From Gammaproteobacteria bacterium (lineage in GTDB: Bacteria; Pseudomonadota; Gammaproteobacteria; Steroidobacterales; Steroidobacteraceae), in the NCBI GenBank assembly GCA_003137095.1, contig PLET01000098.1, forward strand, positions 1 through 35,476: a stretch of DNA of 35,476 bases, given 5' to 3'. A program made the translations under genes and the position numbers. Of this stretch, positions 16,883-35,476 are shown one piece after another (within the stretch, counting starts at the first letter, position 1; every line of letters starts with the position of its first letter). The notes beneath the pieces are model-generated. The model worked only from the letters and a program-made list of their open reading frames with translations, searched no databases and had not been told where the DNA came from.

Positions 16883-17890
16883 TCAGCAGATCCGCGGCAG
16901 TGGATCGTCCTGCAATTCATCGAGAGCACGCTGTCCGCCGAATGCGGTGTCCAGGATCACCTGCGCCGATCCGCGGGTGAATTGCCCGATCAGCGCGGCC
17001 TGCGGGGCCACCGCCCGCAGCGCATGCAATGCCTGGTCGGCCGCATCCGCAGCGACCACGGCCACCAGCCGTCCCTCGCAGGCGAGGTAAAGCGGATCGA
17101 AGCCGAGCAGCTCGCACACCGATTGCACAGCCTCGTTGACGGGAATGCGCTCCTCGGACAAAGACAACGTCAGACCCGTCGCGCCGGCGAGCTCATGGGC
17201 AACCGTCGCAAGACCGCCGCGGGTGGGATCACGCATGAAGCGCAGACCCGGCACCCGCAAGAGCGCCTGCGCCGCCGGCAGCACGCTGGCGCTGTCGGAA
17301 CGCAAATCCCCCTGCAGGCCGAATTCCTGGCGGGCCAGCAGGACCGCGGCGCCGTGGTCGCCGACGGGGCCGCTCACCAGGATGCGATCGCCGGCGCGCA
17401 CATCGGCCATCGCGAGGCGGGTGCCGCGCCGTCGAAAGCCGATGCCCGTGGCGGCCAGGTACATGCCGTCACAGTCGCCGCGCCCGAGGACCTTCGTGTC
17501 GCCGGCAACCACCGCCACGCCGCAATCCTGCGCCGCCGCCGCCAGCGCGCCGATCACCCGGCGCAATGTCGCGATCTCCAGACCCTCCTCCAGGAACACG
17601 CTCAGGGTCAAAAAGCGCGGCACGGCGCCGCTGACCGCAATGTCGTTGACCGTGCCGTGCACCGCCAGCGATCCGATGTTGCCGCCCGGAAACTCGAGCG
17701 GCTTGACCGTGAAGCCGTCCGTGGTGACGACGAGCTCGCGGTCTGCGGGCAACGGCAATGGCACGGCATCCGCACCGATGTCGAGCTGTGGATTGGACAA
17801 CGCCGGCAGGAACAATCCCTCGATCAGCTCGCGCATCATGCGTCCGCCATTGCCGTGTCCGAGGCTGATGTGGGTGTCGCGAACGCTCAA
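16883..17890 (-). CDS. hypE: Hydrogenase maturation protein HypE
   Basis: Dehydrates the carbamoyl group passed from HypF to a C-terminal cysteine, giving the thiocyanate that supplies CN- ligands for the NiFe site. The 335-residue protein has the AIR-synthase-like fold: SLGHGNGGRMM, VTTDGFTVKPLEFPGGNIG, VAGDTKVLGRGDCDGMY, MRDPTRGGLATVAHEL, and it ends in the required PRIC with the carbamoylated cysteine last. No ATG lies near the expected N-terminus; a TTG at 17890 overlapping the hypF stop (TTGA) gives the normal start. It is the last gene of hypABCDXFE. Confidence 0.95.
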   Translation of the reverse strand: MSVRDTHISLGHGNGGRMMRELIEGLFLPALSNPQLDIGADAVPLPLPADRELVVTTDGFTVKPLEFPGGNIGSLAVHGTVNDIAVSGAVPRFLTLSVFLEEGLEIATLRRVIGALAAAAQDCGVAVVAGDTKVLGRGDCDGMYLAATGIGFRRRGTRLAMADVRAGDRILVSGPVGDHGAAVLLARQEFGLQGDLRSDSASVLPAAQALLRVPGLRFMRDPTRGGLATVAHELAGATGLTLSLSEERIPVNEAVQSVCELLGFDPLYLACEGRLVAVVAADAADQALHALRAVAPQAALIGQFTRGSAQVILDTAFGGQRALDELQDDPLPRIC

Positions 17891-20169
17891 GCAGGCGCCT
17901 GCTGCCGCGCGTCTGCACCGGCCTCGATGATCTGCCCATAGCTGATGGCGGCATCGTTGACCGGCAGGCGCCGCGGCACCAGCACCTCGAATCCGGCCGC
18001 CTCCAGCAGCCTTTGTGCCGCTTCGGTCAGGACACGGTTCTGGAACACCCCGCCGCCGAGACCGACGCGCTCGACACCGGTTTGCGCGCGTACCGCGAGC
18101 GCCTGATCGCACAGCGCCGCCGCCAGCGTCGCGTGCAGCAGCGCCGCGCGCCGCGGCCGCGACAGGCGCGCATCGAGCAGGGTCGCGAGCAGCGGCGTCC
18201 AGTCGCTGCGCCACACACCGAAACCGTCCCGTTCGAGCGGCAGGGCGATCGGCTCGCACGTCCCCTCGCACAGCGACTCCAGCAGCATGGGTGCCTCGCC
18301 TTCGTAGCTCGTCTGCAGGCACACCCCGAGCAAGGCCGCCGCGGCATCGAACAGGCGCCCCACGGCCGTCGTCAGATGGGTGTTCACACCGGCGTCGAAG
18401 GCCTGTCGCAGCAGCGGGCCGCCGCGCCGTTCGCCCGGCGGCCAGACCCGGCCCGTCTCCCAGCACAATCCCAGTGCGGAGCGCCACGGCTCACGCGCCG
18501 CGCGCTCGCCCCCGCACAGCCGGAATGGACGGAAGCTCGCCACACGCCGCCAGTGGCCGGGCCGGCCCAGCAGCGCTTCGCCGCCCCACAGTGTGCCGTC
18601 CGGCCCGAGCCCGACCCCATCCCAGGCGAAACACAGCAGCGGCGAGCGGCTCGGATATTCGCCTGCCACTGCGCCGGCGTGCGCGTGGTGATGCCAGATC
18701 GCGCGCGCCGGCCAGCCGCCGGCGCGCGCCCAGCGTGTGTTCGGAAAGTCGGGATGCGCATCGTGCACGACGCAGCGGGCGCGCACCCCGTACAGCTGCT
18801 GCAGGTCGGCGGCGACTTGCGCAAACACCTCGCGGCCCCGGGGACTCGAGAGATCGCCGATGTGCGGCGAGACCACGACGCGCCTGCCCCATGCCAGCGC
18901 CACGGTGGTCTTGAGGTAGGCCCCCACGGCCAGCGTGGGCACATCCATTTCCATGGGCAGATCGAGTTCGAGGGGCGCCGTTCCCCGGCCGAGGCGCACG
19001 GGGCGCAGGGCAGCGCCCATCACGCGCACCACGGGATCCTCCGCCGCTCGTGCAATCGGCCGGTCATGGTGCAGGAAGCCGTCCGCGACTGCGCCGAGCC
19101 GCGCTTCGGCCGCCTCGGGTTCGGTCAGCACGGGCTCGCCGCTCAAGTTGGCGGAGGTTGCCACCAGCGCCCCGCCGAAGTCCCCGAGCAGCAGATGATG
19201 CAGGGGACTGTAGGGCAGCATGAGCGCCAGTTCCCGCAGCCCGGGCGCAATGCCGGCGGCGAGCGGTGCGCCGCGCGGGCTGGCCAGCACGATCGGCCGT
19301 GCCGCAGCACGCAGCGCCTGCGCCTCGAGCGGCGTGATCATCGCGAGCCGGCGGGCATGATCCAGGCCGTCACGGCCGCACCAGGGCACCATCACGCCCA
19401 GAGGTTTGCCGGGCCGGGCCTTGCGCAGCCTGAGCCGTTCGACCGATGCGCCATCGCCGGCATCGCAAAACAGGTGGTAGCCGCCGACGCCGCGCACCGC
19501 GACGATCAGGCCTGCACGCAGGGCGGCCACCGCCGCGGCCAGGGCCGCCCCGTTGCCGTCGATCTCGAGGGCTCCATGACGCCACCGCAGGCGTGGACCA
19601 CAGGCGGCGCAGGCCAGCGGTTGGGCGTGGAATCGCCGGTCGAGCGGATTCGAATACTCCGCGGCACAAGCGGCACACAGCGCGAACTGCGCCAGCGTGG
19701 TGTTCGGTCGGTCGTAAGGCAGCGCACGAATCACGGTGTAGCGCGGCCCGCATTGCGTACAGTTGATGAAGGGATAACGGTGGCGCCGCGCCAGCGGGTC
19801 GCGCATCTCCTGCAGGCAATCCGCGCACGGGCCCAGATCCGCGGGGATGTGCACGCCGCGCGACGCGCCGCCGCTGCTCCGTTCGATGCGAAACAGCTCG
19901 CACGCTTCGGGTGGGGCGGCGCGCACATCGAGCATCCTGGGGGCGGCGGCCGGCGGCGCCAGCAACAGCAGCGCTTTACCGAACACCCGCAATCTTGCGG
20001 GTACTCCTTGGGCGTGGATCTGCACCTCGCCGCCGTCGTTGCGCACCCAGCCGGCGAGTTCGAGGCGATGGGCAAGTCGATACACGAAGGGCCGGAAGCC
20101 CACGCCCTGGACCCGCCCGCCGATCCGCCAGCGCTGCGCGGCGGGGATCTGTCCGGCGGCGGCGCTCAT
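17887..20169 (-). CDS. hypF: Hydrogenase maturation carbamoyltransferase HypF
   Basis: Makes the carbamoyl group for the cyanide ligands from carbamoyl phosphate and ATP, and loads it on HypE. The 760 residues show all domains: acylphosphatase-like (RIGGRVQGVGFRPFVYRLA, 15-33), two zinc fingers (CADC...CTQC and CAAC...CAAC, ~114-190), a YrdC-like domain (~200-385; KARPGKPLGVM, VATSANLSGEP) and a Kae1-like domain (VVHDAHPDFPNTRWA, HHHAHAGAV, GLGGGVFQNRVL). Length is normal. The start overlaps the hypX stop (ATGA). Confidence 0.97.
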   Translation of the reverse strand: MSAAAGQIPAAQRWRIGGRVQGVGFRPFVYRLAHRLELAGWVRNDGGEVQIHAQGVPARLRVFGKALLLLAPPAAAPRMLDVRAAPPEACELFRIERSSGGASRGVHIPADLGPCADCLQEMRDPLARRHRYPFINCTQCGPRYTVIRALPYDRPNTTLAQFALCAACAAEYSNPLDRRFHAQPLACAACGPRLRWRHGALEIDGNGAALAAAVAALRAGLIVAVRGVGGYHLFCDAGDGASVERLRLRKARPGKPLGVMVPWCGRDGLDHARRLAMITPLEAQALRAAARPIVLASPRGAPLAAGIAPGLRELALMLPYSPLHHLLLGDFGGALVATSANLSGEPVLTEPEAAEARLGAVADGFLHHDRPIARAAEDPVVRVMGAALRPVRLGRGTAPLELDLPMEMDVPTLAVGAYLKTTVALAWGRRVVVSPHIGDLSSPRGREVFAQVAADLQQLYGVRARCVVHDAHPDFPNTRWARAGGWPARAIWHHHAHAGAVAGEYPSRSPLLCFAWDGVGLGPDGTLWGGEALLGRPGHWRRVASFRPFRLCGGERAAREPWRSALGLCWETGRVWPPGERRGGPLLRQAFDAGVNTHLTTAVGRLFDAAAALLGVCLQTSYEGEAPMLLESLCEGTCEPIALPLERDGFGVWRSDWTPLLATLLDARLSRPRRAALLHATLAAALCDQALAVRAQTGVERVGLGGGVFQNRVLTEAAQRLLEAAGFEVLVPRRLPVNDAAISYGQIIEAGADARQQAPA

Positions 20170-21848
20170 GCCGAGCGGTGGCGGGCGAGGTGCAGCGGCG
20201 TCCAGGCGTGCGGCGTACGGTGCACGAATCGATGCCGTGCAATGTGGTAGCTCGGATCGAAACCATAGAAGTTCAAGTGCATCTGTGCCAGCTCCTGGTC
20301 GCGGTAGTCGGCGAGCGCACGCTTGCGCTCGTCATCGGCGCGGCACGCGCGCTTGTGCTGCAGCGCCGACTCGAACACGTCCTCGACGGCGAGGGCTTCG
20401 GCTTCACGCCTCACCATTTCCAGGAACCCGGCGTCGTCGGGTCCGGCGTGGTCGTCGATGAGCCCGAACGATCGGGCCCGTTCGGCACCCAGGGGCAGGC
20501 GCGATTCCATCAGCTCGCGGGCGCGCTCGGCGCCGACCCGCCGCGGCAGCAGGTAGGTCCAATATTCCGAGCCGTACAAGTTGCCCATGTTGCGATAGTG
20601 CGGGTTCAGGACCACGCTGCTGCGCGCCAGCACCCGGTCGGCCGCGAGCGCCAGAAACACTCCGCCCGCGGCGGCGTTGCCGCCCAAGGCGGCAATCGTC
20701 AGGTGGGTGTCCGTCAGCAGTATTTCCCGCGCCAGATCGTCGATTTGATTGATGTTGGCCCAGGACGCATCGGCGGGACTGTCGGCCGCCTCGATGCAGT
20801 GCAGGTGCATGCCGTTGCACCAAAAATCCGTTCCACCCATCAGCACGATGACCCGGGTCTGCTGCCGCCGCGCCTGCACGAAGGCCGAGCGCAGGCGTTC
20901 GCATTGTTGCTCGCCGAGCGCCCCGTTGTAGAAATCGAAATGCAGATAGCCGACGGCGGCGCGTTCGACATAGCGGATGTCGCCGCCTGCGGGCTGCCGG
21001 CCGCCGTCTCCCCAGCCCGGATCACGCGGCAGCGTCTGCGCCACCGCCCCCAGCGCGAGCGCGGCCGGCCGCTTGAAGCTTGGCGGCCCGTCGGCAGGCT
21101 GCAATTGCCCGATCCAGACGGCTCCATCCGGCGTGGCGCGGCACACCGAGTCGTGCCGCCGGGCGATCAGGTCGCCGGGCCGGCCGCTGCGCGCGGGCTC
21201 CGCATGCGCATCGAACAGTCGGAAGCGGCGGTGGTCCAGGACATCCTCGAGACCCGGATGGCCGTCGGCCGAGCGGATCTTGCGCAGCACGGTTGCCATG
21301 TCGTCGTGGCGCCAGTCGATGGCCCGCTGCGCCTGCGTCATCGCCGGCTGCCACGTCGCCGATCCGCCGGCCGGTTCGAACAACGGGCCGAGGCCGCTCG
21401 CGACGCGGGCAAGCGCCGCACGGACGGCGGTGACCGCGCCTTCCGTGACCTCATGGCGGTACAGGCTGCTCTTGCGCGCGGCGCGCATCTCGAAGGAGGC
21501 ACTTGCCCACACCGGACCGGCGTCGAGTTCGGCAACGGCCTGGATGACGGTGATCCCCCAGACCGGGACAGCGCGCAGGATCGCCCAGTCGAGTGCGGAC
21601 GGGCCGCGGTCCCCGGGAGGCCCCGGATGCACGATGAAGCAGCGATGCCGCTCCCAGACGGGGCGCGGAATGGCGCGTTTGAGAAAAGGCGCAAGCACCA
21701 CGTCCGGATGGAACAGTTGCGCCGCCTCGCAGGTGACGTCGTCGTGGATGTCGAACTCCACCGACAGCTCGTGCCCGTCGGCACGCAGCTCCACGTGCAG
21801 CCGCTGCGCCAGGCTGTTGAAGGCGTGCGCCAGCATCAGGATGCGCAT
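20166..21848 (-). CDS. hypX: HypX/HoxX, CO-forming [NiFe] hydrogenase maturation enzyme
   Basis: Fusion of two domains, 560 residues, as in Aquifex HypX and Ralstonia HoxX. Residues 1 to ~270 resemble formyl-tetrahydrofolate transferases (MRILMLAHAFNSLAQRLHVE, HPGPPGDRGPSALDWAI at 74-90); residues ~290-500 are an enoyl-CoA hydratase-like domain (YNGALGEQQCERL, VLMGGTDFWCNGMHLH, GGNAAAGGVFLALAADRVL, NPHYRNMGNLYGSEYWTYLLP). In the known family, formyl-THF is turned via formyl-CoA into the CO ligand of the active site, supporting hydrogenase assembly in air. The start at 21848 shares a base with the hypD stop (TGATG). It sits between hypD and hypF in the operon. Confidence 0.95.
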   Translation of the reverse strand: MRILMLAHAFNSLAQRLHVELRADGHELSVEFDIHDDVTCEAAQLFHPDVVLAPFLKRAIPRPVWERHRCFIVHPGPPGDRGPSALDWAILRAVPVWGITVIQAVAELDAGPVWASASFEMRAARKSSLYRHEVTEGAVTAVRAALARVASGLGPLFEPAGGSATWQPAMTQAQRAIDWRHDDMATVLRKIRSADGHPGLEDVLDHRRFRLFDAHAEPARSGRPGDLIARRHDSVCRATPDGAVWIGQLQPADGPPSFKRPAALALGAVAQTLPRDPGWGDGGRQPAGGDIRYVERAAVGYLHFDFYNGALGEQQCERLRSAFVQARRQQTRVIVLMGGTDFWCNGMHLHCIEAADSPADASWANINQIDDLAREILLTDTHLTIAALGGNAAAGGVFLALAADRVLARSSVVLNPHYRNMGNLYGSEYWTYLLPRRVGAERARELMESRLPLGAERARSFGLIDDHAGPDDAGFLEMVRREAEALAVEDVFESALQHKRACRADDERKRALADYRDQELAQMHLNFYGFDPSYHIARHRFVHRTPHAWTPLHLARHRSA

Positions 21849-22978
21849 CAGCCGGCCGCCGCCATGCCGCGACGGTATTGGTGGTACGCGGCGCAGGCGC
21901 CCTCCGCGGACACCATGCAGGAGCCGATGGGATCGCGCGGCGTGCAGGTCGTGCCGAAGAGCGCACAATCGGTGGGCTTCTTGGCGCCGCGTATGATGGC
22001 CTTGCACTGACAGGCGGCATTCTCCCGCACCGCGTGCGTCGTGAGATCGAAGCGCCGCTCGGCGTCGAAGTCCGAATACCGGCTCTTGATGCGCAATCCG
22101 CTGTACGGCAGCTCACCGAGGCCGCGCCACTCGAATTGCGGCCGCAGCTCGAACACTTCCGCGACCAGATTCTGCGCCTTGCGATTGCCGAGGCGGGTCA
22201 CTCCGCGGGTGAACTGGTTCTCGACGCTGGCGCGGCCCGCGTTGAGCTGGCGCACCAGCATCAGGATCGCCTGCAGCACGTCCAGGGGCTCGAAGCCGGC
22301 GATCACCACGGGCCGCCGGTATTCCTGTGCGAAGAATTCATACGGCCCGCTGCCGATCACGGCGCTGACGTGCGACGGGCCGATGAACCCGTCCACGCGG
22401 ACCTTGCCCCACTCGCGCACTTCGGGTGAATCGAGGATGCTCTGGATCGCCGCGGGCGTCACCACGTGATTGCAATACACGCTGAAATTCGTCAGGCCAC
22501 GCCGCTGCGCCTGAAGAATCAGGTGCGCGGTCGCCGGCGTCGTCGTCTCGAAGCCGATGGCGAAGAATACGACCTGCCGATCCGGGTGCGCCGCGGCGAT
22601 GTCCAGGCCCTCGAGCGCCGAGTAGGCCATGCGCACATCCGCACCCTGCGCACGCGCCTTGAGCAGGCTGCGGCGACGCGAACCGGGCACCCGCAGCATG
22701 TCGCCGTAGCTCACCAGCGTGATGCCGGGTCGCAGGCAAAGTTCGATGGCCGCGTCCAGACGCGGCACGGCGAGCACACAAACCGGACAACCGGGGCCGT
22801 GCACCAGGTGCACGTTGCCGGGCAGCAGGTCCTGCACCCCATAGCGGAAAATCGCATGCGTATGGCCGCCGCAGAACTCCATCAGGTGATATTGGCGGCC
22901 GGGATCGGCGTCGGCCACGAGCCGCCGCGACAGCGCCGCCGCGGCGGCTCCGTCACGAAAGCCGCGTATGTAGCGCAT
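21848..22978 (-). CDS. hypD: Hydrogenase maturation iron-sulfur protein HypD
   Basis: With HypC, forms the scaffold on which Fe(CN)2CO is assembled. It has 376 residues and the conserved elements FCGGHTHAIFRYG, LVHGPGCPVCV, SYGDMLRVPGS, GFETTTP and GFIGPSHV, plus a C-terminal [4Fe-4S]/cysteine region (CQCKAIIRGAKKPTDCALFGTTC split over two helices, then DPIGSCMVSAEGACAAY). The start MRYIRGFRDG overlaps the end of hypC by 26 bases. The annotated ATG is the usual N-terminus; the frame's upstream extension lies inside hypC. Confidence 0.97.
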   Translation of the reverse strand: MRYIRGFRDGAAAAALSRRLVADADPGRQYHLMEFCGGHTHAIFRYGVQDLLPGNVHLVHGPGCPVCVLAVPRLDAAIELCLRPGITLVSYGDMLRVPGSRRRSLLKARAQGADVRMAYSALEGLDIAAAHPDRQVVFFAIGFETTTPATAHLILQAQRRGLTNFSVYCNHVVTPAAIQSILDSPEVREWGKVRVDGFIGPSHVSAVIGSGPYEFFAQEYRRPVVIAGFEPLDVLQAILMLVRQLNAGRASVENQFTRGVTRLGNRKAQNLVAEVFELRPQFEWRGLGELPYSGLRIKSRYSDFDAERRFDLTTHAVRENAACQCKAIIRGAKKPTDCALFGTTCTPRDPIGSCMVSAEGACAAYHQYRRGMAAAG

Positions 22979-23210
22979 GGCCCGGATTGCGCAGCTGGTC
23001 GGCAATCTCATCGAACAGCGCCAGGCTCTTTTCCGCCTCGGCGACGTCGAGCCGGGATATGGCGAAGCCGGCGTGCACGATGACGTAATCGCCGACCGCG
23101 ACACCATCGACCAGCGCCAGCGAAACCCGGGTGTGCACCCCGCCCACTTCGATTTGCGCCCAATCGTCCTCGAAGAGGGCGGCAACCCGCGCCGGAACGG
23201 CGAGGCACAT
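22953..23210 (-). CDS. hypC: Hydrogenase assembly chaperone HypC
   Basis: An 85-residue HypC/HupF chaperone that carries the Fe(CN)2CO group from HypD to the hydrogenase large-subunit precursor. The N-terminus MCLAVPARV carries the essential Cys2, and GGVHTRVSLALVDGVAVGDYVIVHAGFAIS is the conserved barrel (written in two pieces in the family profile). Starts three bases after hypB and overlaps hypD by 26 bases. A single HypC-type gene is present, so the large subunit here has no dedicated HupF copy in the window. Confidence 0.96.
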   Translation of the reverse strand: MCLAVPARVAALFEDDWAQIEVGGVHTRVSLALVDGVAVGDYVIVHAGFAISRLDVAEAEKSLALFDEIADQLRNPGHALHTRLS

Positions 23211-23213: not shown

Positions 23214-23957
23214 TCAGGCCTCCATCATGGCGTCGACCCGCGGCGCGCGCAGCGGCGCTGCACGTCTGGCGCGCAGCTCGCATTCGAGCCAGTGCAGCCA
23301 CTCGCCGAGGGCCGGCGCACGCCGTGCCGCCGTGTGGATCATCGGCACGCCGCCGCCCAGCGCCCGCAGCGCGGTCGCGGCGCGCGCCGGATCGAAATCA
23401 TCCAGCACGTCGAGCAAATCCGTCTTGCTCAGCACCACCAGATCGCTCGCCCGGAAGATCACCGGATATTTTGCCGGTTTGTCATCGCCCTCGGTGACGC
23501 TCAGCAGGGTGACGTTACGGTGCTGACCGAGATCGAACCCGGCCGGGCACACCAGGTTGCCGACGTTCTCGATGAACAGCAGATCGAGGCCGGCGAGCGG
23601 CAGTTCGTGCAGCGCGGCGTGCACCAACTGCGCATCCAGATGGCAAGCGCTGCCGGTGGTGATCTGCAGCGCCGGAACGCCGTGCGCGCGAATGCGGGCG
23701 GCGTCGTTGTCGGTTTCCAGATCTCCCTCGATGACGGCGATGCGATAGCGCTCGCGCAGGGCCACGATGGTCGCCTCCAGCAGTGCGGTCTTGCCGGCGC
23801 CGGGCGAGGACATCAGATTGACCACCAGCACACGATGCCGGTCGAAATGCTCGCGATTGTGCGCCGCCGCCCGGTCATTCGCGGCGAGCAGACCCTGCAG
23901 CACGTCGATCGTGACGGTGTCCGCGGGTTTCATGGCGCAGCCACAGGTGTTGCACAT
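23214..23957 (-). CDS. hypB: Hydrogenase nickel-insertion GTPase HypB
   Basis: GTPase that inserts nickel together with HypA, 247 residues. The N-terminal metal-binding motif MCNTCGC is intact, the P-loop is SSPGAGKT (50-57), and EGDLETDNDA, ENVGNLVCPAGFDLG and VLSKTDLLD are the switch and guanine-recognition regions. There is no histidine-rich nickel-storage stretch after the first motif, unlike HypB of rhizobia. The start MCNTCGC has GGGAGG five bases upstream, fixing it against the longer frame from 24092. Follows hypA after 19 bases. Confidence 0.97.
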   Translation of the reverse strand: MCNTCGCAMKPADTVTIDVLQGLLAANDRAAAHNREHFDRHRVLVVNLMSSPGAGKTALLEATIVALRERYRIAVIEGDLETDNDAARIRAHGVPALQITTGSACHLDAQLVHAALHELPLAGLDLLFIENVGNLVCPAGFDLGQHRNVTLLSVTEGDDKPAKYPVIFRASDLVVLSKTDLLDVLDDFDPARAATALRALGGGVPMIHTAARRAPALGEWLHWLECELRARRAAPLRAPRVDAMMEA

Positions 23958-23976: not shown

Positions 23977-24417
23977 TCACGCGGTCGCGCCGGGGCCGCT
24001 CGCGCGCGCCCGGCGCCGCAGCAGCCCGGACGGCTCCGGAACCGGCGGCAGCTGCGCAAGCTCCGGCAGCCCCGCCAGCCGCAATTCGACATCGCGCAGG
24101 CGCAGGTCTTCGCCGGCCACCACCCGGGTGCGGTAACCGCCGCATTGCGTGCAGATCAGGCGGTTCGGCGCAGCCGGTGACTCGGTGCCGCAGGCCAGGC
24201 ACTCGATCCGCACGCCGGTTGATTCGATCCGCAGGGCGGCCGTTGCCGCGCAGCTGCCGGCGCGCATGACCGCGAATGCCGCGGTGAGCAGCGCCGGATC
24301 GACGCCGGCGAGCGCGCCGATTTCGATGGTCACCCGCTCGACCGCAGCGGCGCCGTTGACGGCGGCGATTTCAGCGACGCGAATCAGCAACGCCTGGCAG
24401 ATCGACAGTTCATGCAT
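23977..24417 (-). CDS. hypA: Hydrogenase nickel metallochaperone HypA
   Basis: Delivers nickel to the hydrogenase large subunit with HypB. The N-terminus MHELSICQALL holds the nickel ligands His2 and Glu3, and the zinc site is two CxxC motifs (CLAC and CTQC). It has 146 residues, about 30 more than usual; the extra residues form a C-terminal tail (ELRLAGLPELAQLPPVPEP then an Arg-rich end) after the normal fold. The second of two adjacent ATGs (24417) fits the family N-terminus and has AGGA eight bases upstream. First gene of the hyp operon and divergent from the hydrogenase operon. Confidence 0.93.
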   Translation of the reverse strand: MHELSICQALLIRVAEIAAVNGAAAVERVTIEIGALAGVDPALLTAAFAVMRAGSCAATAALRIESTGVRIECLACGTESPAAPNRLICTQCGGYRTRVVAGEDLRLRDVELRLAGLPELAQLPPVPEPSGLLRRRARASGPGATA

Positions 24418-24452
24418 CATCGGAATCCTAGGGCGTGGAGCGCTCACCTGTA

Positions 24453-24468
24453 TGTACGCCAGCGTACA
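24453..24468. promoter_or_regulatory. Perfect palindrome in the hyp/hydrogenase divergent promoter, candidate operator
   Basis: TGTACGC and GCGTACA (seven bases each, two-base spacer CA) form a perfect inverted repeat in the 107-base gap between hypA and the hydrogenase operon. It lies 36 bases before hypA and 57 before the endopeptidase start. The sequence, with the following GAC, recurs as a close variant at 31450-31468 in the other divergent region of this cluster. Size and symmetry suit a dimeric regulator. I found no sigma-54 -24/-12 pair in this gap. Confidence 0.6.
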
Positions 24469-27287: not shown

Positions 27288-28582
27288 GCGACGTCGCGGT
27301 CGAAGGCCTCCCCGCGCAGGCGCGGGTGGCCGGCGCCATGCAGGGCTTCTCGCGGGAGATCGGCGCGCTCAGCGCCTTTCGGCTCGAGTCCTGCATCCAT
27401 TGCGGGATATGCGCCGACGCCTGCCACTACTACGTCGCCACCGAGGACCCACAGTACACGCCCATCTGGAAGGTCGAACCCTTCAAGCAGGCATACAAGC
27501 GCGAGGCCAGCGCCTTCGCGCCCTTGTTCAGGCTGTTCGGCTTCAAGCGCGCGGTGAGCGCCGAGCAGCTGGAACATTGGCAGCACCTGCTGTTCGACAG
27601 CTGCAATCTGTGCGGACGCTGCAGCCTGATCTGCCCCATGGGCATCGACGTGGCGGCGCTCATCGAACAGGCGCGCCACGCGATGTTCGATGCCGGTCTC
27701 GCGCCGAAGGAACTGTACGACAAGGCCGCGCACCAGCGGGCCACCGGGCAGCCGGAGGCGAGCGCCGAGCCCTACCGCGATCAGCTCATCGCAATCGGCG
27801 TGCGCTTCGATGTGCGGATACCCCTCGATGAATCAGACGTGGACGTCATGTTGTGCATTCCGAGGACGGACATCGACCACTATCCGGGCGCGGTCGCGGC
27901 GCTCGCACGGGTGATGTCCCATCTCGGGGTTTCCTGCACCTTCCGTAGTGACGGGCTGATCGCCGAGAACTACGGCTACTACGCCGGCGGCAGGGAATGG
28001 CAGCGCGACATCAGCCTGCGGCTGATCGACACGGCGATCGCCTGCAAAGCGAAGACGCTGATCGTCCCGGAGTGCGGCCATGCCTACGCCGCGCTGCGCT
28101 GGGAGGCCGCCGATCTGTACGGCAAGCCGCTGCCCTTCAAGGTGCTGGCGGTCACGGAATTTCTCGCCCAAGAGCTCGGGGCGGGCCGCCTGCGGCTGGG
28201 CAATGCCACCACCGGCCCCACGACCTTTCAGGACCCGTGTCAGCTGTCCCGCACGGGCGGCGTGACCGAGGCGCCGCGGGCGCTGATGAAGGCCATGGGT
28301 GTGGATCTTCAGGAAATGCGCAATAACGGCAGTTTCAGCTACTGCTGCGGCGGCGGCGGCGGAGTGGTGGATATAGAACGGGCGGCGCCGCTGCGCTACC
28401 GGACCATGGAGATCAAATTGCGGGAGATCGACGACACCGGCGCGAACACGTTCCTGACCACCTGCTCGGACTGCCGGCGTACCTTCGACGATGCACAGCG
28501 GCACTTCAGCTGGGACAAGTCACCGGAGAGCCTGCTCGAGCTCGTCGCCAAGAATCTGATCGACGCGGGCGCGGGCCGATGA
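27284..28582 (+). CDS. isp2: Isp2: HdrD/DsrK-like iron-sulfur protein
   Basis: A 432-residue protein with two ferredoxin-type [4Fe-4S] motifs, CIHCGICADAC (~37-47) and CNLCGRCSLICP (~108-119), and a C-terminal cysteine-rich CCG domain (DPCQLSRTGG, SYCCGGGGGVVD, CSDCRRTF) like HdrD, DsrK and GlpC. The first half-domain has only PECGHAYAALR, so one complete CCG site is visible. No signal peptide or transmembrane helix is seen, so it should lie on the cytoplasmic face beside Isp1. In Isp-type hydrogenases Isp1 and Isp2 link the enzyme to electron acceptors. Overlaps both neighbours by four bases. Confidence 0.94.
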   Translation: MSDVAVEGLPAQARVAGAMQGFSREIGALSAFRLESCIHCGICADACHYYVATEDPQYTPIWKVEPFKQAYKREASAFAPLFRLFGFKRAVSAEQLEHWQHLLFDSCNLCGRCSLICPMGIDVAALIEQARHAMFDAGLAPKELYDKAAHQRATGQPEASAEPYRDQLIAIGVRFDVRIPLDESDVDVMLCIPRTDIDHYPGAVAALARVMSHLGVSCTFRSDGLIAENYGYYAGGREWQRDISLRLIDTAIACKAKTLIVPECGHAYAALRWEAADLYGKPLPFKVLAVTEFLAQELGAGRLRLGNATTGPTTFQDPCQLSRTGGVTEAPRALMKAMGVDLQEMRNNGSFSYCCGGGGGVVDIERAAPLRYRTMEIKLREIDDTGANTFLTTCSDCRRTFDDAQRHFSWDKSPESLLELVAKNLIDAGAGR

Positions 28583-30321
28583 GCGCGCAGACCATCGTGG
28601 TCGATCCCGTGACGCGGATCGAGGGCCATCTGCGGATCGAAGCCGAGTTCGACGGCCAGGTGATCACCCGCGCCTCGAGTTCCGGCACCATGGTGCGCGG
28701 GATCGAGATCATCCTGCAGGGCCGCGATCCGCGCGACGCCTGGGCGTTCGCGCAGCGCATCTGCGGAGTCTGCACCCTGGTCCACGGCATCGCCTCGGTG
28801 CGCGCCGTGGAGAATGCGTTGAGCTATGAGATTCCCGCCAACGCGCAGCTGATCCGCAATCTGATGATCGGCGCACAATTCGTTCACGATCACGTCATGC
28901 ACTTCTATCATCTGCACGCCCTCGACTGGGTGGACGTGGTGTCGGCGCTCAAAGCCGATCCGAAGTCCACCTCGGCGCTGGCGCAGTCGATCTCGAGCTA
29001 CGCACGTTCCTCGCCGGGCTACTTCGCGGACGTGCAGAGCCGCGTCAGGAAACTGGTCGAATCCGGGCAGCTCGGCATTTTCGCCAACGCCTACTGGGGT
29101 AGCCCGCTGTACCAGCTGCCGCCGGAGGCCAACCTCATGGCCGTCGCGCATTACCTGGACGCCCTCGCGTGGCAGCGCCAGATCATCCAGCTGCAGACCA
29201 TTTTCGGCGGCAAGAATCCGCACCCGAATGTGCTGGTGGGGGGCACGCCCGCCGCCATCAGCGTGCACGCCGGTGCGGGCACCGCCACCACTGCGGTCAA
29301 CGAGGTCGGATTGCAGAAGGTCGCCGAGCTCATCGATCAGATGCGCATGTTCGTCGATGAGGTGTACGTGCCCGACATCTTGGCGATCGCCTCCTTCTAC
29401 AAGGATTGGTTCAAGAAGGGCTACGGCGAAGGCACCGGCAACTTCATGACCTACGGCGATTTTCCCGCCACGGGAAGCCAGGATCCGAAGACCTTTCTGG
29501 TGCCGCGCGGCGCGATTCTGGGGCGCGATTTGTCGCGCATACTGGAGGTGGACGTCACCTCCCAGGACGACATCCAGGAGTTTGTGGCGCACTCCTGGTA
29601 CGACTACCGCGGCGGCAAGGAAACCGGCCTTCACCCTTTCAAAGGCGAGACGCAGCTGAACTATTCCGGGCCGCAGCCGCCGTACCAGCATCTGGACACC
29701 ACGGCGAGCTATTCCTGGATCAAGTCGCCGCGCTGGAAGGGCCACGCCATGGAGGTCGGCCCCTTGGCGCGCATTCTCATGCTGTACGCGAGCGGCCACG
29801 CCCCCACCCGGGCGCTGGCCGACAAGTCGCTGGCGCAGCTCGGCCTGCCGCTCGAGGCGATGTTCTCGACCATGGGCCGCACCGCCGCCCGCGCCTTCGA
29901 ATCGAAAATTCTGGCCGATGCCATGCCGGGTTGGTACGGCGCGCTGATGGCGAACATCAAGGCGGGCGACGTGCGCACCTTCAACGAGAAGCTGTGGGAA
30001 CCCTCGACCTGGCCGCGGCACGCGCAGGGGGTGGGGTTCATGGAGGCGCCGCGAGGCGCCCTCGGTCATTGGATCGTCATCGACGACGGCCGGATCACGA
30101 ACTATCAGGCGGTGGTGCCCAGCACTTGGAACGCCGGGCCGCGGGATCCAGCCGGTGTCGAAGGTCCGTACGAGGCGGCGCTGAAAGGCCAGACCATCCG
30201 GGATCCGAAGCAGCCCCTGGAAATCTTGCGCACGGTGCACAGCTTCGATCCCTGTCTGGCCTGCGCCGTGCACGTCCTCGATCCCGGCGGCGAGGAATTG
30301 ATCCGGATCCGCGTGCAGTGA
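28579..30321 (+). CDS. hynL: [NiFe] hydrogenase large (catalytic) subunit (HynL-like)
   Basis: Carries the NiFe(CN)2CO centre that splits H2; 580 residues. The L1 motif RICGVCTLVHGIASVRAVE (C62, C65) and L2 motif DPCLACAVH (C559, C562, H565) supply the four cysteines, and VTRIEGHL holds the proton-relay Glu (E15). Fifteen residues follow H565 and should be removed by the endopeptidase. No signal peptide is present, as expected for Tat co-export with the small subunit. The sequence is of group 1 membrane-bound uptake type. Last gene of the operon, its stop is ten bases from the convergent RatA-like gene. Confidence 0.97.
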   Translation: MSAQTIVVDPVTRIEGHLRIEAEFDGQVITRASSSGTMVRGIEIILQGRDPRDAWAFAQRICGVCTLVHGIASVRAVENALSYEIPANAQLIRNLMIGAQFVHDHVMHFYHLHALDWVDVVSALKADPKSTSALAQSISSYARSSPGYFADVQSRVRKLVESGQLGIFANAYWGSPLYQLPPEANLMAVAHYLDALAWQRQIIQLQTIFGGKNPHPNVLVGGTPAAISVHAGAGTATTAVNEVGLQKVAELIDQMRMFVDEVYVPDILAIASFYKDWFKKGYGEGTGNFMTYGDFPATGSQDPKTFLVPRGAILGRDLSRILEVDVTSQDDIQEFVAHSWYDYRGGKETGLHPFKGETQLNYSGPQPPYQHLDTTASYSWIKSPRWKGHAMEVGPLARILMLYASGHAPTRALADKSLAQLGLPLEAMFSTMGRTAARAFESKILADAMPGWYGALMANIKAGDVRTFNEKLWEPSTWPRHAQGVGFMEAPRGALGHWIVIDDGRITNYQAVVPSTWNAGPRDPAGVEGPYEAALKGQTIRDPKQPLEILRTVHSFDPCLACAVHVLDPGGEELIRIRVQ

Positions 30322-30792: not shown

Positions 30793-31377
30793 TCAACCGC
30801 CGGCGGGCAGGGTGTGCGCCATGCCCCGGTGACAGTCGATGCAGGTCGTGCCGTTCTTCGCCAGGGATTGATGCGCGCTTGCCGCCGCCGCCGGCTGCTT
30901 TGCGAAAGCCATGGCCGCCGGCGTGTGGCAGCTGCGGCACTCGGCGGAGTCGTTCGCCCCGAGTTCCTTCCAGACCTTCTGTGCGAGCTCCAGGCGGTGG
31001 CTTTCGAATTTCGCAGGGGTGTCGAGTTCGCCGGTGGCGTGTCCCCACACCTCGACCACGGCCGCGGCGTGGCGCATCAGTCCGGGCACGAAGGCCGGCG
31101 GCACATGGCAGTCGGCGCAGCTCGCCCGGACCCCGAACTCGTTGGAGTAATGCACGCTGTGCGTGAGTTCCTGGTAGGGCGTGTTCATTTCATGGCAGGA
31201 CGTGCAGAACGTTTCGGTGGACGCGTATTGCAGGCCGCCGAAGAAGCCGCCGGTGAATCCCACACCGACGAGGAAGGCGAGCAATCCGCCGGCCGGTATG
31301 CCGAGCAGATACCAGCGCCGCGGCCGCCGCCACAACCAGGCGGCCAGCCCCGTGCCGGGCAACTTCGGCGAATTCAC
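30793..31377 (-). CDS. NapC/NirT (CymA-like) tetraheme cytochrome c quinol dehydrogenase
   Basis: Takes electrons from quinol at the inner membrane and passes them to periplasmic cytochromes. The 194 residues contain one N-terminal anchor (RRWYLLGIPAGGLLAFLVG, 21-39) and four CXXCH sites: CTSCH 58-62, CADCH 87-91, CRSCH 147-151, CIDCH 179-183. Size and heme spacing match CymA/NapC. I start at the GTG at 31377, close before the helix as in CymA; a TTG at 31488 would add 37 polar residues and cover the candidate operator. A seven-codon leader with strong ribosome site ends on this GTG (GTGA). Divergent from mtrCAB, its likely partner. Confidence 0.93.
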   Translation of the reverse strand: MNSPKLPGTGLAAWLWRRPRRWYLLGIPAGGLLAFLVGVGFTGGFFGGLQYASTETFCTSCHEMNTPYQELTHSVHYSNEFGVRASCADCHVPPAFVPGLMRHAAAVVEVWGHATGELDTPAKFESHRLELAQKVWKELGANDSAECRSCHTPAAMAFAKQPAAAASAHQSLAKNGTTCIDCHRGMAHTLPAGG

Positions 31378-31397: not shown

Positions 31398-31449
31398 GCG
31401 CGTTCCTCCACGACCGGCGCAACACTACGAGATTGGGCCTGCGCTGCTC

Positions 31450-31530: not shown

Positions 31531-33972
31531 ATGCCGATTCGAATCCGCGCATCGCGCCACGTACGCCGGCTGGCCGGATTGACCGGCGCCGCATTGACCG
31601 GCCTGCTGCTCGCTGCCTGCAGCGGCACCACCGGCTCCTCGGGTCCGGCCGGTGCAACCGGCGTCACCGGCGCGCAAGGTCCGCCGGCCACGGGTTCGGC
31701 ACTCAACGTCAGCACCGCGACGGCGATCACCGGAACGATCACCGGCGTCACCATCGGCGGACCCCCGGTGGTCAAATTCCGGCTGGCCGACCAGAACGGC
31801 GCGCCGCTGCAGGGCCTGCCGGCGGCCGACCTCGGCTTTGCGATCGCGCAACTGGTGCCGGGACAAAATGGCATGTCCAGCCAATGGAACTCGTACATCT
31901 ACAGCACAGTCCCCCCCGCCGCGTGCCCCGCCGGGGTGCCGGCCTGCGCGACCACACCCGAGGTTCAAGCCTCGGTGGAAGCGGCCACCGGCGGCGCGCT
32001 GGTCGACAACGGCGACGGCACCTACCAGTACACGTTCCTCAAGGACATCACCAAGGATCCCAACGTCGTCTACAGCCCGCTGTTGACGCATCGCGTCGGC
32101 TTCGAGATCCGCGGCCTCGCCCAGGCGAACAACGGCGCCTTCACCTTCCAGCCCTCGAGCGGGGCAACCACCGGCATTTTCAGCCGCGAGATCGTCGAGA
32201 CGGCCACCTGCGACGGCTGCCACACCATGTTGACGGCGCACGGCGGTGCGCGCGTCGAGGTGCAGTACTGCGTCATGTGCCACAACCCGGGGACCAGCGA
32301 TCCCACCAGCGGCAATCCGCTCGACATGAAGCAGATGATCCACAAGATCCACGCCGGCAATACGCTACCCAGCATCCAGACGCCCGCCGGCCCGAACATC
32401 GTGCCGACGCTGGGCATCGGCTACTGGATCGTGGGCTACGGCGATTCGCTGTCGAATTTCAACACCGTGCTCTATCCCCAGGACACGCGCAACTGCACCA
32501 CCTGCCACGTGCAGAACATCCCGACCCTGACGGAGGCCGCCAATTACAGCAGCGTGCCGACGATGGAAGCGTGCGGCGCCTGCCACGACAACGTCAATTT
32601 CGCCACCGGCGCCAACCATGGCCCGAGCATCGTCGCCAACGACACCCAGTGCACCACCTGCCACGGCACCACCTCGACCATCGACAACGGCCAATTGCAG
32701 GTGGTTGCGGCACACGTCATTCCCGAGGTGGCCGCGGCCGCAAAATTCCAGTACGTGGTCAACAGCGTCACCTTCACCACCGACAACGCCCACAACGTCT
32801 ATCCGGTGGTGAAATTCTCCGTCGTCGATCCGACCAACGGCAATGCGCCGTACAACATCCTCACCGCCGCAGCATTCGTCGGCACCGATCCCGGCACCGG
32901 ACAGCCGGTGTGCGCCAACGGCGGCACTGCGCGCCTCGCGATCGACTTTGCCTGGGATACCAGTGATTACACCAACTGGGGCAGCGGTGCGACGCCCGCC
33001 ACCTGGGGTCAACCCGTCTCCTTGAACCCGCTGAGTGTGGCCGGGTGTGCCGCGGCGGTGCCGGGAGCGGCGATCACGGGACCGGATTCCACCGGCGCCT
33101 TCACCCTGACCTCGCCCACCGCGCTGCCCGCGCCGCCGGCCGCGAACTGTCCGCCGGCGGGCGCCGCCGCCTGCGCGGCCATCAGCAACGTCGCCGTCGT
33201 GATCGAGGGCCATCCCGGAGTGGTCACCACCGGTCCCGGCGCCACCGCCATCCCGGTGGCAAGCACCGTGAGCTACGCGAATGTGGCGGGAACGGCCCCG
33301 GCGGCACGCCGCGTGGTGGTGGACATCGCCAAGTGCAACGTGTGCCACAGCCTGCTCGCCCTGCATGGCGACAACCGCAACGGGAACACCCAGGTGTGCG
33401 CGGTCTGCCACAATCCCGCGTCCACCGATGTCGGCAGCCGGCAAACCCTGGTCACCGCAGGCACCGACGGTCTGTGGGAACAGACCATCGACTTCAAGCA
33501 CATGATCCACGCCATCCACGACGGCAGCGTGCGCGGCGCCGCCGGATCGCCCTTCGTGATCTACGGCTACGGCGGATCGGTGAACAATTTCACCGACGTG
33601 GTGTATCCGGGCCAGATCAACCGCTGCGACGCCTGCCACGTCGGCACCAGCTACTATCCGGTGAACGACGCCGCGGTCCAGGCCACCACCTTGCTCACCG
33701 GCCTCTCGAAAGAGGTCCCGAATCCGACCACCGTCGGCAATCCGATCTCCACCTCGGCCAACATGTCGGTGTGCTCGTCGTGCCACGTCGACACCCTCGC
33801 CGCCGCGCACATGCTGCAGAACGGCGGCTCGACCGCGGTCGCCAAGGATGCCGAAGGCCGCACGATCGCCAATGCCAATCCGGCGAACGCGGAAACCTGC
33901 GGCGTGTGCCACGGTGCCGGCGGCGTCGCCGACGTGATGGTCGTGCACAACATTCCCACCACGGCGGATTGA
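31531..33972 (+). CDS. mtrC: OmcA/MtrC-family outer-surface decaheme cytochrome c lipoprotein
   Basis: Terminal extracellular reductase or conduit of porin-cytochrome systems; 813 residues. The signal peptide ends in lipobox LAAC with C30, so the protein is lipid-anchored. Ten CXXCH sites fall in two groups of five: C227, C247, C322, C348, C374 and C602, C623, C698, C748, C790, in two alike halves (CHNPGTSD / CHNPASTD; MIHKIHAG / MIHAIHDG), joined by a ~200-residue beta-rich region as in MtrC. A Gly-rich collagen-like stretch (GSSGPAGATGVTGAQGPPA) follows the lipid anchor. The ATG has GGGAGAG upstream. mtrA follows without a gap. Confidence 0.95.
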   Translation: MPIRIRASRHVRRLAGLTGAALTGLLLAACSGTTGSSGPAGATGVTGAQGPPATGSALNVSTATAITGTITGVTIGGPPVVKFRLADQNGAPLQGLPAADLGFAIAQLVPGQNGMSSQWNSYIYSTVPPAACPAGVPACATTPEVQASVEAATGGALVDNGDGTYQYTFLKDITKDPNVVYSPLLTHRVGFEIRGLAQANNGAFTFQPSSGATTGIFSREIVETATCDGCHTMLTAHGGARVEVQYCVMCHNPGTSDPTSGNPLDMKQMIHKIHAGNTLPSIQTPAGPNIVPTLGIGYWIVGYGDSLSNFNTVLYPQDTRNCTTCHVQNIPTLTEAANYSSVPTMEACGACHDNVNFATGANHGPSIVANDTQCTTCHGTTSTIDNGQLQVVAAHVIPEVAAAAKFQYVVNSVTFTTDNAHNVYPVVKFSVVDPTNGNAPYNILTAAAFVGTDPGTGQPVCANGGTARLAIDFAWDTSDYTNWGSGATPATWGQPVSLNPLSVAGCAAAVPGAAITGPDSTGAFTLTSPTALPAPPAANCPPAGAAACAAISNVAVVIEGHPGVVTTGPGATAIPVASTVSYANVAGTAPAARRVVVDIAKCNVCHSLLALHGDNRNGNTQVCAVCHNPASTDVGSRQTLVTAGTDGLWEQTIDFKHMIHAIHDGSVRGAAGSPFVIYGYGGSVNNFTDVVYPGQINRCDACHVGTSYYPVNDAAVQATTLLTGLSKEVPNPTTVGNPISTSANMSVCSSCHVDTLAAAHMLQNGGSTAVAKDAEGRTIANANPANAETCGVCHGAGGVADVMVVHNIPTTAD

Positions 33973-34968
33973 GTGCCGCGGCCGGCGCGCGTGCGACAGG
34001 CGGCCGCTCTCGCCCTGCTGCTGGGGGGCGCCATGCCGGCCGTCGCGGCCGCGCCGCCGGCGCAGACCGCCCCAGCGCCGACCGCCGCGGTTGCACCGGC
34101 CGCCGCAGCCGGTCCACCGCCGGCCGGCGGTGCCTACAGCCCGCATGGCGCGGATAGCTGCCTGGGATGCCACGGCGATGCCGCGGTCACGGGAATCTTC
34201 CGCACCAAGCATGCGCATCCGAACGATCCCAACGGTCCCTTCGGCCACGGCGGTTTGCAGTGCGAAGCCTGCCACGGACCGGGCGGCGCGCACGTGAAGG
34301 CAGGCGGCGGTCCGTTGGCGGGCATGATCGACTTCGGTCCGAAGGCGCACGCGCCCGCATCCCGGCAGAACGCGCCCTGCCTGTCCTGCCACCAGTCGAA
34401 CGCCGCCCACGATTGGGCCACCAGCGCGCATGCGGCGAGCAACGTGGCCTGCGCCAGCTGCCACCAGCTGCATCTCGCGAAGGACCCCGTGCAGGCGGTC
34501 GCAACCCAGGTCGAGGTCTGCTCGACCTGTCACCAGGCAGAGCATGCCGATCTCCTGAAGCCCTCGCATCATCCCCTGCGCGAGGGCACGATGGCCTGCA
34601 CGGCGTGCCATGCCCCGCACGGTTCGACCGCCCCGGCGCAGCTGGTCAAGAATACGGTCAACGAGACCTGCACCACCTGCCACGCCGAATACCGCGGACC
34701 GTTTCTCTGGGAGCACCAGCCGGTCACCGAGGACTGCAGCAACTGCCACGCGCCGCACGGATCGGTGCAGCCGGCATTGCTGAAAATGCGCCCCCCGCTG
34801 CTCTGCCAGACCTGCCACGAAGGCGCCGGACATCCCTCGATCGCGAACACGCCGCAGGGCCTGCCCGGCGGCATGCCGAGCGCCTTCCTGCTCGGCGGCG
34901 GCTGCTTGAATTGCCACTCACAGGTTCACGGCTCCAATAGTCCGTCGGGCCGGGCGCTGATGCGATGA
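33973..34968 (+). CDS. mtrA: MtrA/DmsE-family periplasmic decaheme cytochrome c
   Basis: Carries electrons through the outer-membrane porin to the surface cytochrome. The 331 residues comprise a signal peptide (ALALLLGGAMPAVAAA), an Ala/Pro linker and ten CXXCH sites: CLGCH, CEACH, CLSCH, CASCH, CSTCH, CTACH, CTTCH, CSNCH, CQTCH, CLNCH. The spacing with two repeated pentaheme halves and CHAPHGS repeats is that of MtrA/PioA/DmsE. The GTG start directly follows the mtrC TGA, and the stop overlaps mtrB (ATGA). Whether it inserts in MtrB (MtrA) or serves another reductase (DmsE) is settled by context in favour of MtrA. Confidence 0.95.
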   Translation: MPRPARVRQAAALALLLGGAMPAVAAAPPAQTAPAPTAAVAPAAAAGPPPAGGAYSPHGADSCLGCHGDAAVTGIFRTKHAHPNDPNGPFGHGGLQCEACHGPGGAHVKAGGGPLAGMIDFGPKAHAPASRQNAPCLSCHQSNAAHDWATSAHAASNVACASCHQLHLAKDPVQAVATQVEVCSTCHQAEHADLLKPSHHPLREGTMACTACHAPHGSTAPAQLVKNTVNETCTTCHAEYRGPFLWEHQPVTEDCSNCHAPHGSVQPALLKMRPPLLCQTCHEGAGHPSIANTPQGLPGGMPSAFLLGGGCLNCHSQVHGSNSPSGRALMR

Positions 34969-35476
34969 CGCCGCGCGCAAGCACGAAGCGCCGTGGCGGG
35001 CTGCACATGCTCGCTCTCGCGGCCGCCGTCGGCGCGCACGCCGCTCCTGCCCCGACCCCGGCCGACCCGGCGCCGCCGGACAGCAGCGACTGGAAGTGCA
35101 CCCAATGTCCGTTCCTGCAAGGCTCCGTCAACGAGGTCGAGCTCGGCGCGATCGATGCGAGCGGCGCGGATGCGAGCTTCGGCCGTTACAACGGCCTGGA
35201 CCACAGCGGCACCTATGTGGACGCGGCGGCGTCGGGACAGGCGCGCAGCGAGGAGGGTGCCTATGCCGGCTACGATCTCGAGCGGCTGGGCTTGGCCGCG
35301 CGCCAAGGCACGGTCGAGGGCGGACGCGAAGGCCGCTACGATTTGCGCATCAGCTACGACGGCCAGCCCACCGCGCTCTACGACGGCGCCCTGTCGCCCT
35401 ACCAGGGGCACGGCGGCAACCTGAGCCTGCCGGCGGATTGGGTGGCCGCCGGCAGCACCGCCGGCATGAGCGCGCT
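34965..35476 (+). CDS. mtrB: MtrB-family decaheme-associated outer-membrane porin, N-terminal part (cut by window end)
   Basis: Beta-barrel sheath in which MtrA is held. The 170 residues visible show a signal peptide (LHMLALAAAVGAHA), then DWKCTQCPF with the N-terminal CXXC pair (C45, C48) characteristic of Shewanella MtrB, and the first barrel strands with alternating aromatic/polar pattern (VELGAIDASGADASFGRYNGL, AYAGYDLERLGLAAR, EGRYDLRISYDG, each a strand). The ATG overlaps the mtrA stop. The frame is open to the window end; MtrB proteins are about 700 residues. Confidence 0.92.
   Translation, partial: MTPRASTKRRGGLHMLALAAAVGAHAAPAPTPADPAPPDSSDWKCTQCPFLQGSVNEVELGAIDASGADASFGRYNGLDHSGTYVDAAASGQARSEEGAYAGYDLERLGLAARQGTVEGGREGRYDLRISYDGQPTALYDGALSPYQGHGGNLSLPADWVAAGSTAGMSA

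Follow-up and report, generated by a model that had tools for sequence, protein, structure and literature searches.

Can one locus encode a whole respiratory chain, from H2 to an acceptor outside the cell? This question is raised by a 35,476-nucleotide stretch of DNA (the window) that makes up bases 1-35476 of scaffold C75 (106063 bases) in G000, a draft genome of the Steroidobacteraceae (4.74 Mb, 129 contigs, 91.8% complete). In the window, genes for an Isp-type [NiFe] hydrogenase and its maturation are followed by a gene for a NapC/CymA-type tetraheme cytochrome and by mtrC-mtrA-mtrB, the genes for an outer-membrane electron conduit. An earlier reading, made from the sequence alone (the sequence-only reading), had taken the locus to encode a self-contained respiration of H2 with extracellular acceptors. 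We consider it probable (about 0.6) that the locus encodes H2-fed extracellular respiration, in which electrons would pass from H2 through the Isp hydrogenase, menaquinone, the NapC/CymA-type protein and MtrCAB to an outside acceptor.

The genes named by the sequence-only reading (the hyp set, the protease, hynS-isp1-isp2-hynL, the NapC/CymA-type gene and mtrC-mtrA-mtrB) were all recovered by profile matches where it had placed them. Profiles, PDB matches and motifs identified large and small subunits of a group 1 [NiFe] hydrogenase. The small subunit HynS has a Tat motif (RRGFIKF), a CTGC motif and a hydrophobic C-terminal stretch, features from which a periplasm-facing enzyme is expected. 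By gene order and family matches, isp1 and isp2 lie between hynS and hynL; these two names were given from position and from similarity to TmcC/HmcE and DsrK/HmcF, below the cut-offs of those models. Going by the gene order and the match to PDB 3myr (presumably the Allochromatium vinosum enzyme), the hydrogenase is probably a group 1e-like Isp type. The tetraheme protein has a NapC/NirT domain and four c-type heme motifs; its score for TIGR02161 (200.7 bits) fails the cut-off of 310.6, and it is therefore termed NapC/CymA-like only.

The conduit consists of an OmcA/MtrC-family decaheme protein, a DmsE/MtrA-family decaheme protein and a member of the MtrB/PioB barrel family. Among solved structures, MtrC matches OmcA, MtrF and MtrC chains. 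PDB 6r2q, which was matched by MtrA and which we take to be the Shewanella baltica MtrCAB complex, also contains an OmcA/MtrC-family chain; the molecule name listed for its chain A is odd. All three mtr families were thus matched, but mtrB is incomplete in the window. It is interrupted by a scaffold gap and resumes past a run of N (further match at C75:35494-36888, 204 bits; end near C75:36924). Each half (56 and 204 bits) is below the 240-bit cut-off alone, while the intact relative in genome G003 scores 331 bits. Despite this gap, an assembly artefact is an unlikely source of the joint order, because G003 has the same order on a 133-kb contig. The claim that no unrelated gene interrupts the cluster had to be dropped, since a SRPBCC/RatA-like gene (30332-30769, minus strand) between hynL and napC had been overlooked.

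We then asked how often the two halves are found together. Among 217 genomes of the family, with HynL homologues taken at E at most 1e-30, 49 had an MtrB match (38 over the cut-off) and 32 of these also had a HynL homologue. HynL and MtrB lay within 15 kb of each other, our definition of co-location, in 10 of the 32 (G000, G003, G038, G040, G050, G052, G055, G056, G075 and G139); in G163 they lay on one contig, nearly 70 kb apart. Random placement (about 30 kb in 4 Mb for each genome) would give about 0.2 of 32, a comparison that is no test of independent events because the genomes are related. For the class control, an even sample of 369 genomes yielded 36 with MtrB matches. Of these, 26 lay outside the family and matched over a sizeable stretch, and they were used; the other 10 were two of the window's family and eight weak ones. 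HynL was present in 13 of the 26 and near MtrB in none of these 13. In five of the 13 (G269, G425, G461, G485, G546) the contig breaks off too close to the mtr genes for a decision, which leaves a firm control of 0/8. The difference between 10/32 and 0/13 gave a Fisher p of 0.042, with kinship ignored.

The genus comprises 23 genomes, 11 of which have a hydrogenase of the window's kind (HynL at least 70% identical). mtrB was found in three (G000, G002, G003), as was mtrA over its cut-off, and all three also carry the window-type hydrogenase. A single contig holds hyn-isp, napC and mtrCAB, in this order, in both G000 and G003. In G002 one contig bears hyn, napC and a first mtrC and breaks off after the start of another; mtrA, mtrB and the end of an mtrC are found together at the end of a second contig. 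We infer that these two contigs join into one locus. Two tandem mtrC genes seem to be present there (L045:3-2937 and L046), the napC-proximal one about 43% and the next about 80% identical to the window's MtrC. In G004 the contig stops inside hynL. It may be noted that at least seven mtrAB-free members of the genus contain open frames of about 1200-1840 codons that give weak multiheme matches (e.g. G018:C21:93653-98911 and G013:C528:6335-10504), possibly encoding very large multiheme cytochromes.

A scan of named genomes, covering the 80 best HynL loci, extended the picture beyond the family. Ten of these 80 have mtr-type genes downstream of hynL; counting only the 54 loci whose sequence extends 5 kb or more downstream, the number is 9. 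When HynL identity was also at least 74%, mtr genes were present at 6 of 7 loci, the exception among the best 80 being L057. The joint loci L055, L056, L063, L064, L066 and L069 appear to be genomes of the family count; L060, L083, L100 and L103 are new, L083 and L103 being near copies of each other. L100 belongs to an isolate, Wenzhouxiangella limi C33, and has, in this order, hynL, mtrC, mtrA, mtrB, two genes resembling the ArsA pair of L103, and napC; the stretch from hyn-isp to napC, mtrCAB included, covers about 17 kb. Outside the family the arrangement thus recurs in Wenzhouxiangella and in a metagenome-assembled genome (MAG) of the Burkholderiales (L060), and the joint locus is a property of several species, not of a single strain only, the outcome that the sequence-only reading had named as one that would refute it. 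An ArsA-like ATPase gene pair was seen beside napC in the Wenzhouxiangella loci (L103:13064-15123, L083:12587-14646, L145:8664-10726; one of the L103 genes was profile-scanned).

Were the halves joined once? An MtrA tree of 62 proteins was examined, 14 with a hydrogenase nearby, 35 without and 13 undecided. The labels were set by hand from contig ends and the co-location results (G002 was labelled as associated although it is split), and the tree covers nine of the ten co-located family genomes (not G052) and the other rows with a usable MtrA. The 14 associated proteins come from the window's family, from a Wenzhouxiangella trio and, far off, from the Burkholderiales locus L060. When undecided rows were dropped, at least five changes of association were needed. 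A single clade of the 14 was rejected by the approximately unbiased (AU) test (p 2e-41), a rejection that may rest mainly on L060. The distribution of association on the tree suggests that related bacteria joined the two parts more than once.

The joint locus is also one whose parts, as identified by family matches, appear exchanged for non-orthologous equivalents. At L135, of the same family as the window, a hydrogenase of the HyaC-type cytochrome b kind is joined to mtrCAB (L135:6157-18111; TIGR02125 169 bits, cut-off 121.5). The genome of this locus, G038, seems to hold the Isp type and the start of mtrC on another contig (L069). L136 has a HynL like that of L135 (57%) and no isp match. In place of a NapC-like protein, for which there was no match nearby, L137 and L147 encode a multiheme protein (9 or 7 hemes) whose C-terminal half resembles cytochrome b (below the Pfam cut-off). 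We take this protein to be CbcL-like; a 7-heme relative of it is found at L144, an undecided locus. No NapC-family match at all was found in G219, the genome of L066. L060 keeps the Isp hydrogenase and NapC at 64-79% identity, and its conduit has a distant MtrA (about 40%) and a distant MtrB (26%; 237 bits against the cut-off of 240; PF11854 305 bits); no mtrC was found there. A HemN-like radical SAM gene was noticed between or beside the hydrogenase and mtrC at several loci (L142:10802-12187, L135:10881-12350, L139:9801-11183, L137:9691-11106; profile scans covered L066 and L135). It possibly serves heme supply.

If electrons cross between the halves by way of quinone, the genes for quinone synthesis are of interest. 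In G003, menF (part), menD, menH, menB, menC and menE lie about 1.7 kb past the 3' end of hypE (L043:3-6453). The scores for menF (232 bits, cut-off 225), menD (349, cut-off 244) and menB (470, cut-off 343) pass, and those for menH, menC and menE are below their cut-offs. In G218, the source of L060, a menF-D-H-B-C-E set with menA adjoins the hyn operon on its protease side (L203:2336-10909). G000 has the same men set with menA on contig C117 (L201:8365-17156), its MenB and MenD being 91% and 72% identical to those of G003.

A MenD profile search was made of 66 genomes, consisting of 44 with mtr, 20 genus members without mtrB, and G221 and G222 from outside the mtrB search; eight of the 49 MtrB-positive family genomes (G028, G068, G081, G083, G090, G096, G210, G211) were left out. 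MenD passed its cut-off in six of the 66, all among the 44 with mtr (G000, G003, G149, G151, G218, G220), in none of the 20 genus members without mtrB and in neither G221 nor G222. Within the genus, this means two of the three mtr genomes (G000, G003) versus 0/20 others (Fisher p 0.012, kinship ignored). The nearest Isp hydrogenases at which no mtr genes were seen, L057 (G221) and L059 (G222; only 2.3 kb of downstream sequence), thus belong to genomes without MenD over the cut-off. UbiA-family, MenA-like genes were found by profile in the joint loci L066, L103, L135 and L147 and beside the L061 hydrogenase. The MenA cut-off was passed in L066, L135 and L147, whose apparent source genomes (G056, G038 and G040) have no MenD over the cut-off. 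UbiA/MenA look-alikes were also seen at L083 and L144, outside the profile scan.

Several results weigh against H2-fed extracellular respiration. By strand, the hyp genes (minus), the hyn operon (plus), the SRPBCC gene with napC (minus) and mtrCAB (plus) imply about four transcription units. A single operon is ruled out by these three orientation switches, and the two halves are separate units by orientation. In W. limi, a strong terminator-like hairpin stands between hynL and mtrC (-26.7 kcal/mol, z -6.2); consensus scans of the window and of L145 gave no clear excess over shuffled sequences, and the same scan missed the W. limi hairpin. As to co-location, 21 of the 32 family genomes that have both modules never show them on a shared contig (contig breaks contribute, e.g. 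in G002); L057, with a close Isp hydrogenase (85% HynL identity), lacks mtr genes in the 10 kb downstream; and in the other seven genus genomes with the hydrogenase the genes run (hynS-)isp1-hynL-isp2, and mtrB gave no match. The MtrA tree does not separate gains from losses; in it Wenzhouxiangella and the window's family share one 33-row clade with unassociated rows, so that for these two a single old joining may have been followed by losses. As regards the quinone, the men operon of the window's genome is on a separate contig from the cluster, and no MenD over the cut-off was found in G002 or W. limi. Menaquinone as a general partner of mtr was rejected, since 38 of the 44 mtr genomes tested have no MenD over the cut-off and menaquinone made by this route is therefore not general. 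G000 has three further NapC-family genes besides that of the cluster. Finally, group 1e hydrogenases have been tied to sulfur respiration (PMC7735108).

Some of these results would suit an explanation in which genes for anaerobic respiration merely gather and travel together, the hydrogenase and the conduit serving separate chains that share the quinone pool only. Separate transcription units, complex I genes after mtrB in G003 (nuoN, nuoM and nuoL, on the opposite strand, at L044:8859-13793), the hydrogenase without mtr in so close a relative as L057, and the additional NapC-family genes of G000 all agree with such a hot spot. However, joint loci are found on separate branches, where the hydrogenases, quinol cytochromes and conduits differ, and every genus member found to have mtrAB also has the window-type hydrogenase. 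We regard the hot spot as improbable. A functional link of the two halves is supported: several species share the neighbourhood, it turns up in distinct parts of the MtrA tree, and a quinol-facing cytochrome is mostly retained even where its type differs; the men operon, in addition, adjoins the cluster in two genomes. The interpretation given by the sequence-only reading is thus upheld in part. Its link between the halves is supported, and its term self-contained is apt to a limited extent only, in view of the men operon on C117, the separate units, the W. limi hairpin and the mtr-free L057.

The direction of electron flow was considered separately. H2 and an outside donor such as Fe(II) or a cathode could both be sources, with MtrCAB and the NapC-like protein running inward, the hydrogenase as an alternative donor, and O2 respiration and CO2 fixation as the destinations of the electrons. 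Mtr-type conduits can work in reverse, and some iron oxidisers have MtrC (PMC10734462). All three joint genus genomes (G000, G002, G003) carry RuBisCO, but so do 11 others of the genus (14/23 in all), and L060 has MtrAB with no MtrC found. HypX is the source of the CO ligand under aerobic conditions, and its presence in the window suggests maturation in air. Against inward flow stands the men operon that adjoins the cluster in G003 and G218: with its low potential, menaquinone suits electron transfer from H2 to Fe(III) and accepts electrons from Fe(II) poorly. Menaquinone thus fits outward flow better than inward flow from Fe(II), and an electron-input role, though the least improbable of the alternatives, is unlikely.

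Quinone might also be bypassed altogether, the periplasmic hydrogenase passing electrons to MtrA directly or through small cytochromes. The Tat motif would put the hydrogenase in the periplasm, which MtrA also faces in known systems, and small tetraheme proteins lie beside the cluster in L083 and L103. Membrane subunits are kept, however (Isp1/Isp2, or HyaC in L135), as is, in most of the joint loci examined, NapC or the multiheme protein whose one half resembles cytochrome b, and the men operon is linked in G003 and G218. Such a shortcut is very unlikely.

For H2-fed extracellular respiration, the steps may be envisaged as follows. The periplasm-facing Isp-type (group 1e-like) hydrogenase would oxidise H2, and Isp1/Isp2 would use the electrons to reduce quinone in the membrane, for which menaquinone is the likeliest candidate. 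The quinol would be oxidised by the NapC/CymA-type tetraheme protein and its electrons passed to periplasmic MtrA. Seated in the MtrB barrel, MtrA would deliver them to MtrC at the surface and so to an outside acceptor, which may be an Fe(III) or Mn(IV) mineral, humic matter, an electrode or a partner cell. H2 as donor, together with RuBisCO in the three joint genus genomes, would allow growth on CO2. The gene content, the families, the recurrence, the module exchange and the men operon of G000 are observed; the electron path, its direction, the acceptor and the joint use of the halves are what we infer from them.

More tentatively, and at somewhat less than an even chance, the locus may be a portable lithotrophic module consisting of hydrogenase, maturation set, its own menaquinone synthesis, quinol cytochrome and outer-membrane conduit. 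It would have been built up and transferred as a single island among bacteria with MenD-free relatives, and its assembly would have taken place several times, each from other kinds of hydrogenase, quinol cytochrome and conduit. If the locus does encode H2-fed extracellular respiration, uncultured Gammaproteobacteria and Wenzhouxiangella would have H2 as a directly encoded donor for such respiration, and group 1e hydrogenases would gain an acceptor other than sulfur. The cluster-linked men operon predicts menaquinone in its carriers and not in their relatives. W. limi C33, a cultured carrier of hyn-isp, mtrCAB and napC, makes the idea directly testable.

The genes of the cluster are listed in Table 1.

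Table 1. Genes of the hydrogenase-conduit cluster in the window, with the matches that identify them
Gene	Product or role	Coordinates	Strand	Evidence
hypE	Hydrogenase maturation	16883..17884	-	NCBIfam TIGR02124 366 bits (cut-off 251.6); start codon inferred
hypF	Carbamoyltransferase	17887..20169	-	TIGR00143 679 bits (cut-off 466)
hypX/hoxX		20166..21848	-	Best PDB match 6j0p HoxX, 565 bits, residues 1-558
hypD		21848..22978	-	TIGR00075 458 bits (cut-off 192.8)
hypC		22953..23210	-	TIGR00074 75.9 bits (cut-off 48)
hypB	Nickel incorporation	23214..23957	-	TIGR00073 258 bits (cut-off 121)
hypA	Nickel chaperone	24028..24420	-	TIGR00100 82.7 bits (slightly below cut-off 88.1)
Protease gene	Hydrogenase maturation protease (HyaD/HybD/HynD type)	24435..25064	+	TIGR00072 110.5 bits (cut-off 47); PF01750
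HupH_C gene	HupH-like hydrogenase expression protein	25061..25495	+	PF04809 101 bits
hynS	[NiFe] hydrogenase small subunit	25492..26628	+	TIGR00391 (hydA) 425 bits, passes; PDB 3myr_A 378 bits
isp1	Membrane subunit	26625..27287	+	TmcC 104 bits, HmcE 88 bits, both below cut-off; about 5 hydrophobic segments (hydropathy)
isp2	HdrD/DsrK-like iron-sulfur protein	27284..28582	+	PF02754 CCG, Fer4_8; TmcB/DsrK/HmcF-like below cut-off
hynL	[NiFe] hydrogenase large subunit	28579..30321	+	PF00374 762 bits, passes; PDB 3myr_B 899 bits
SRPBCC gene	SRPBCC/START-domain protein (RatA-like), 145 aa	30332..30769	-	PF03364 79 bits; NCBIfam RatA 54 bits (far below cut-off 258)
napC/cymA-type	Membrane tetraheme cytochrome, predicted quinol oxidase	30793..31377	-	PF03264 (NapC/NirT) 209 bits; 4 CXXCH
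mtrC	OmcA/MtrC-family decaheme, predicted surface lipoprotein	31531..33972	+	TIGR03507 511 bits (cut-off 209); 10 CXXCH; lipobox-like LLAAC
mtrA	DmsE-family decaheme	33973..34968	+	TIGR03508 295 bits (cut-off 192); 10 CXXCH; PDB 6r2q_A 295 bits, residues 25-331
mtrB, first part		34965..35476	+	TIGR03509 56 bits; interrupted by scaffold gap at window end

The true start of the protease gene is probably downstream of 24435. The napC-like frame opens to 31488, and its start near 31377 was placed from relatives. Two genes, hypX and the HupH_C gene, come in addition to those listed by the sequence-only reading. No match to the SRPBCC gene was found in the G003 and G002 loci, nor to hypX in the G003 locus; a relative of the SRPBCC gene (29% identity) lies near the hydrogenase of L061. 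Translations were also read for the surroundings of the cluster. GGDEF-like, BamA-like and reductase-like genes follow mtrB on C75, and sulfate uptake and assimilation genes (an ABC transporter, a CysB-like regulator, siroheme synthase and cysteine synthase) occupy positions 2710-11430 of the window. The nearest named relatives of the window's HynL are from MAGs labelled bog, fen and palsa, presumably of the Stordalen Mire project; of the first four, three are named as Gammaproteobacteria and one as Rhodanobacteraceae.

How does the locus compare with known systems? The order hynS-isp1-isp2-hynL has been reported for Thiocapsa roseopersicina (PMC3325256) and Acidithiobacillus ferrooxidans (PMC7735108), and both subunits of the window's enzyme match 3myr best among solved structures. 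Group 1e hydrogenases have been tied to sulfur respiration (PMC7735108), whereas the window's enzyme adjoins a NapC/CymA-type cytochrome and mtrCAB. At. ferrooxidans, which has an Isp-type hydrogenase, also couples H2 oxidation to Fe(III); its proposed path runs through a bc1 complex, rusticyanin, other carriers and an outer-membrane cytochrome c, unlike the MtrCAB of the window (PMC7735108). In Rhodoferax ferrireducens, quinol-facing cytochromes lie beside mtrABC as in the window, in a cluster with two cymA genes and mtrH; the main text of that report has no mention of hydrogenase (PMC6295460). A survey of MtrCAB that covers the genomic context of mtrCAB and names Wenzhouxiangella likewise has no occurrence of the word 'hydrogenase' in its main text (PMC8805035), and no earlier description of a joint hydrogenase-mtr locus was found among the open-licence papers searched. 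With the MtrCAB/CymA system of Shewanella the window shares the MtrC, MtrA and MtrB families, 10 + 10 hemes, the order C-A-B and an adjacent tetraheme protein of the NapC/CymA type, and to these it adds a hydrogenase and its maturation genes. Both halves belong to well-known families, and the joint locus is best filed as a new combination of known modules.

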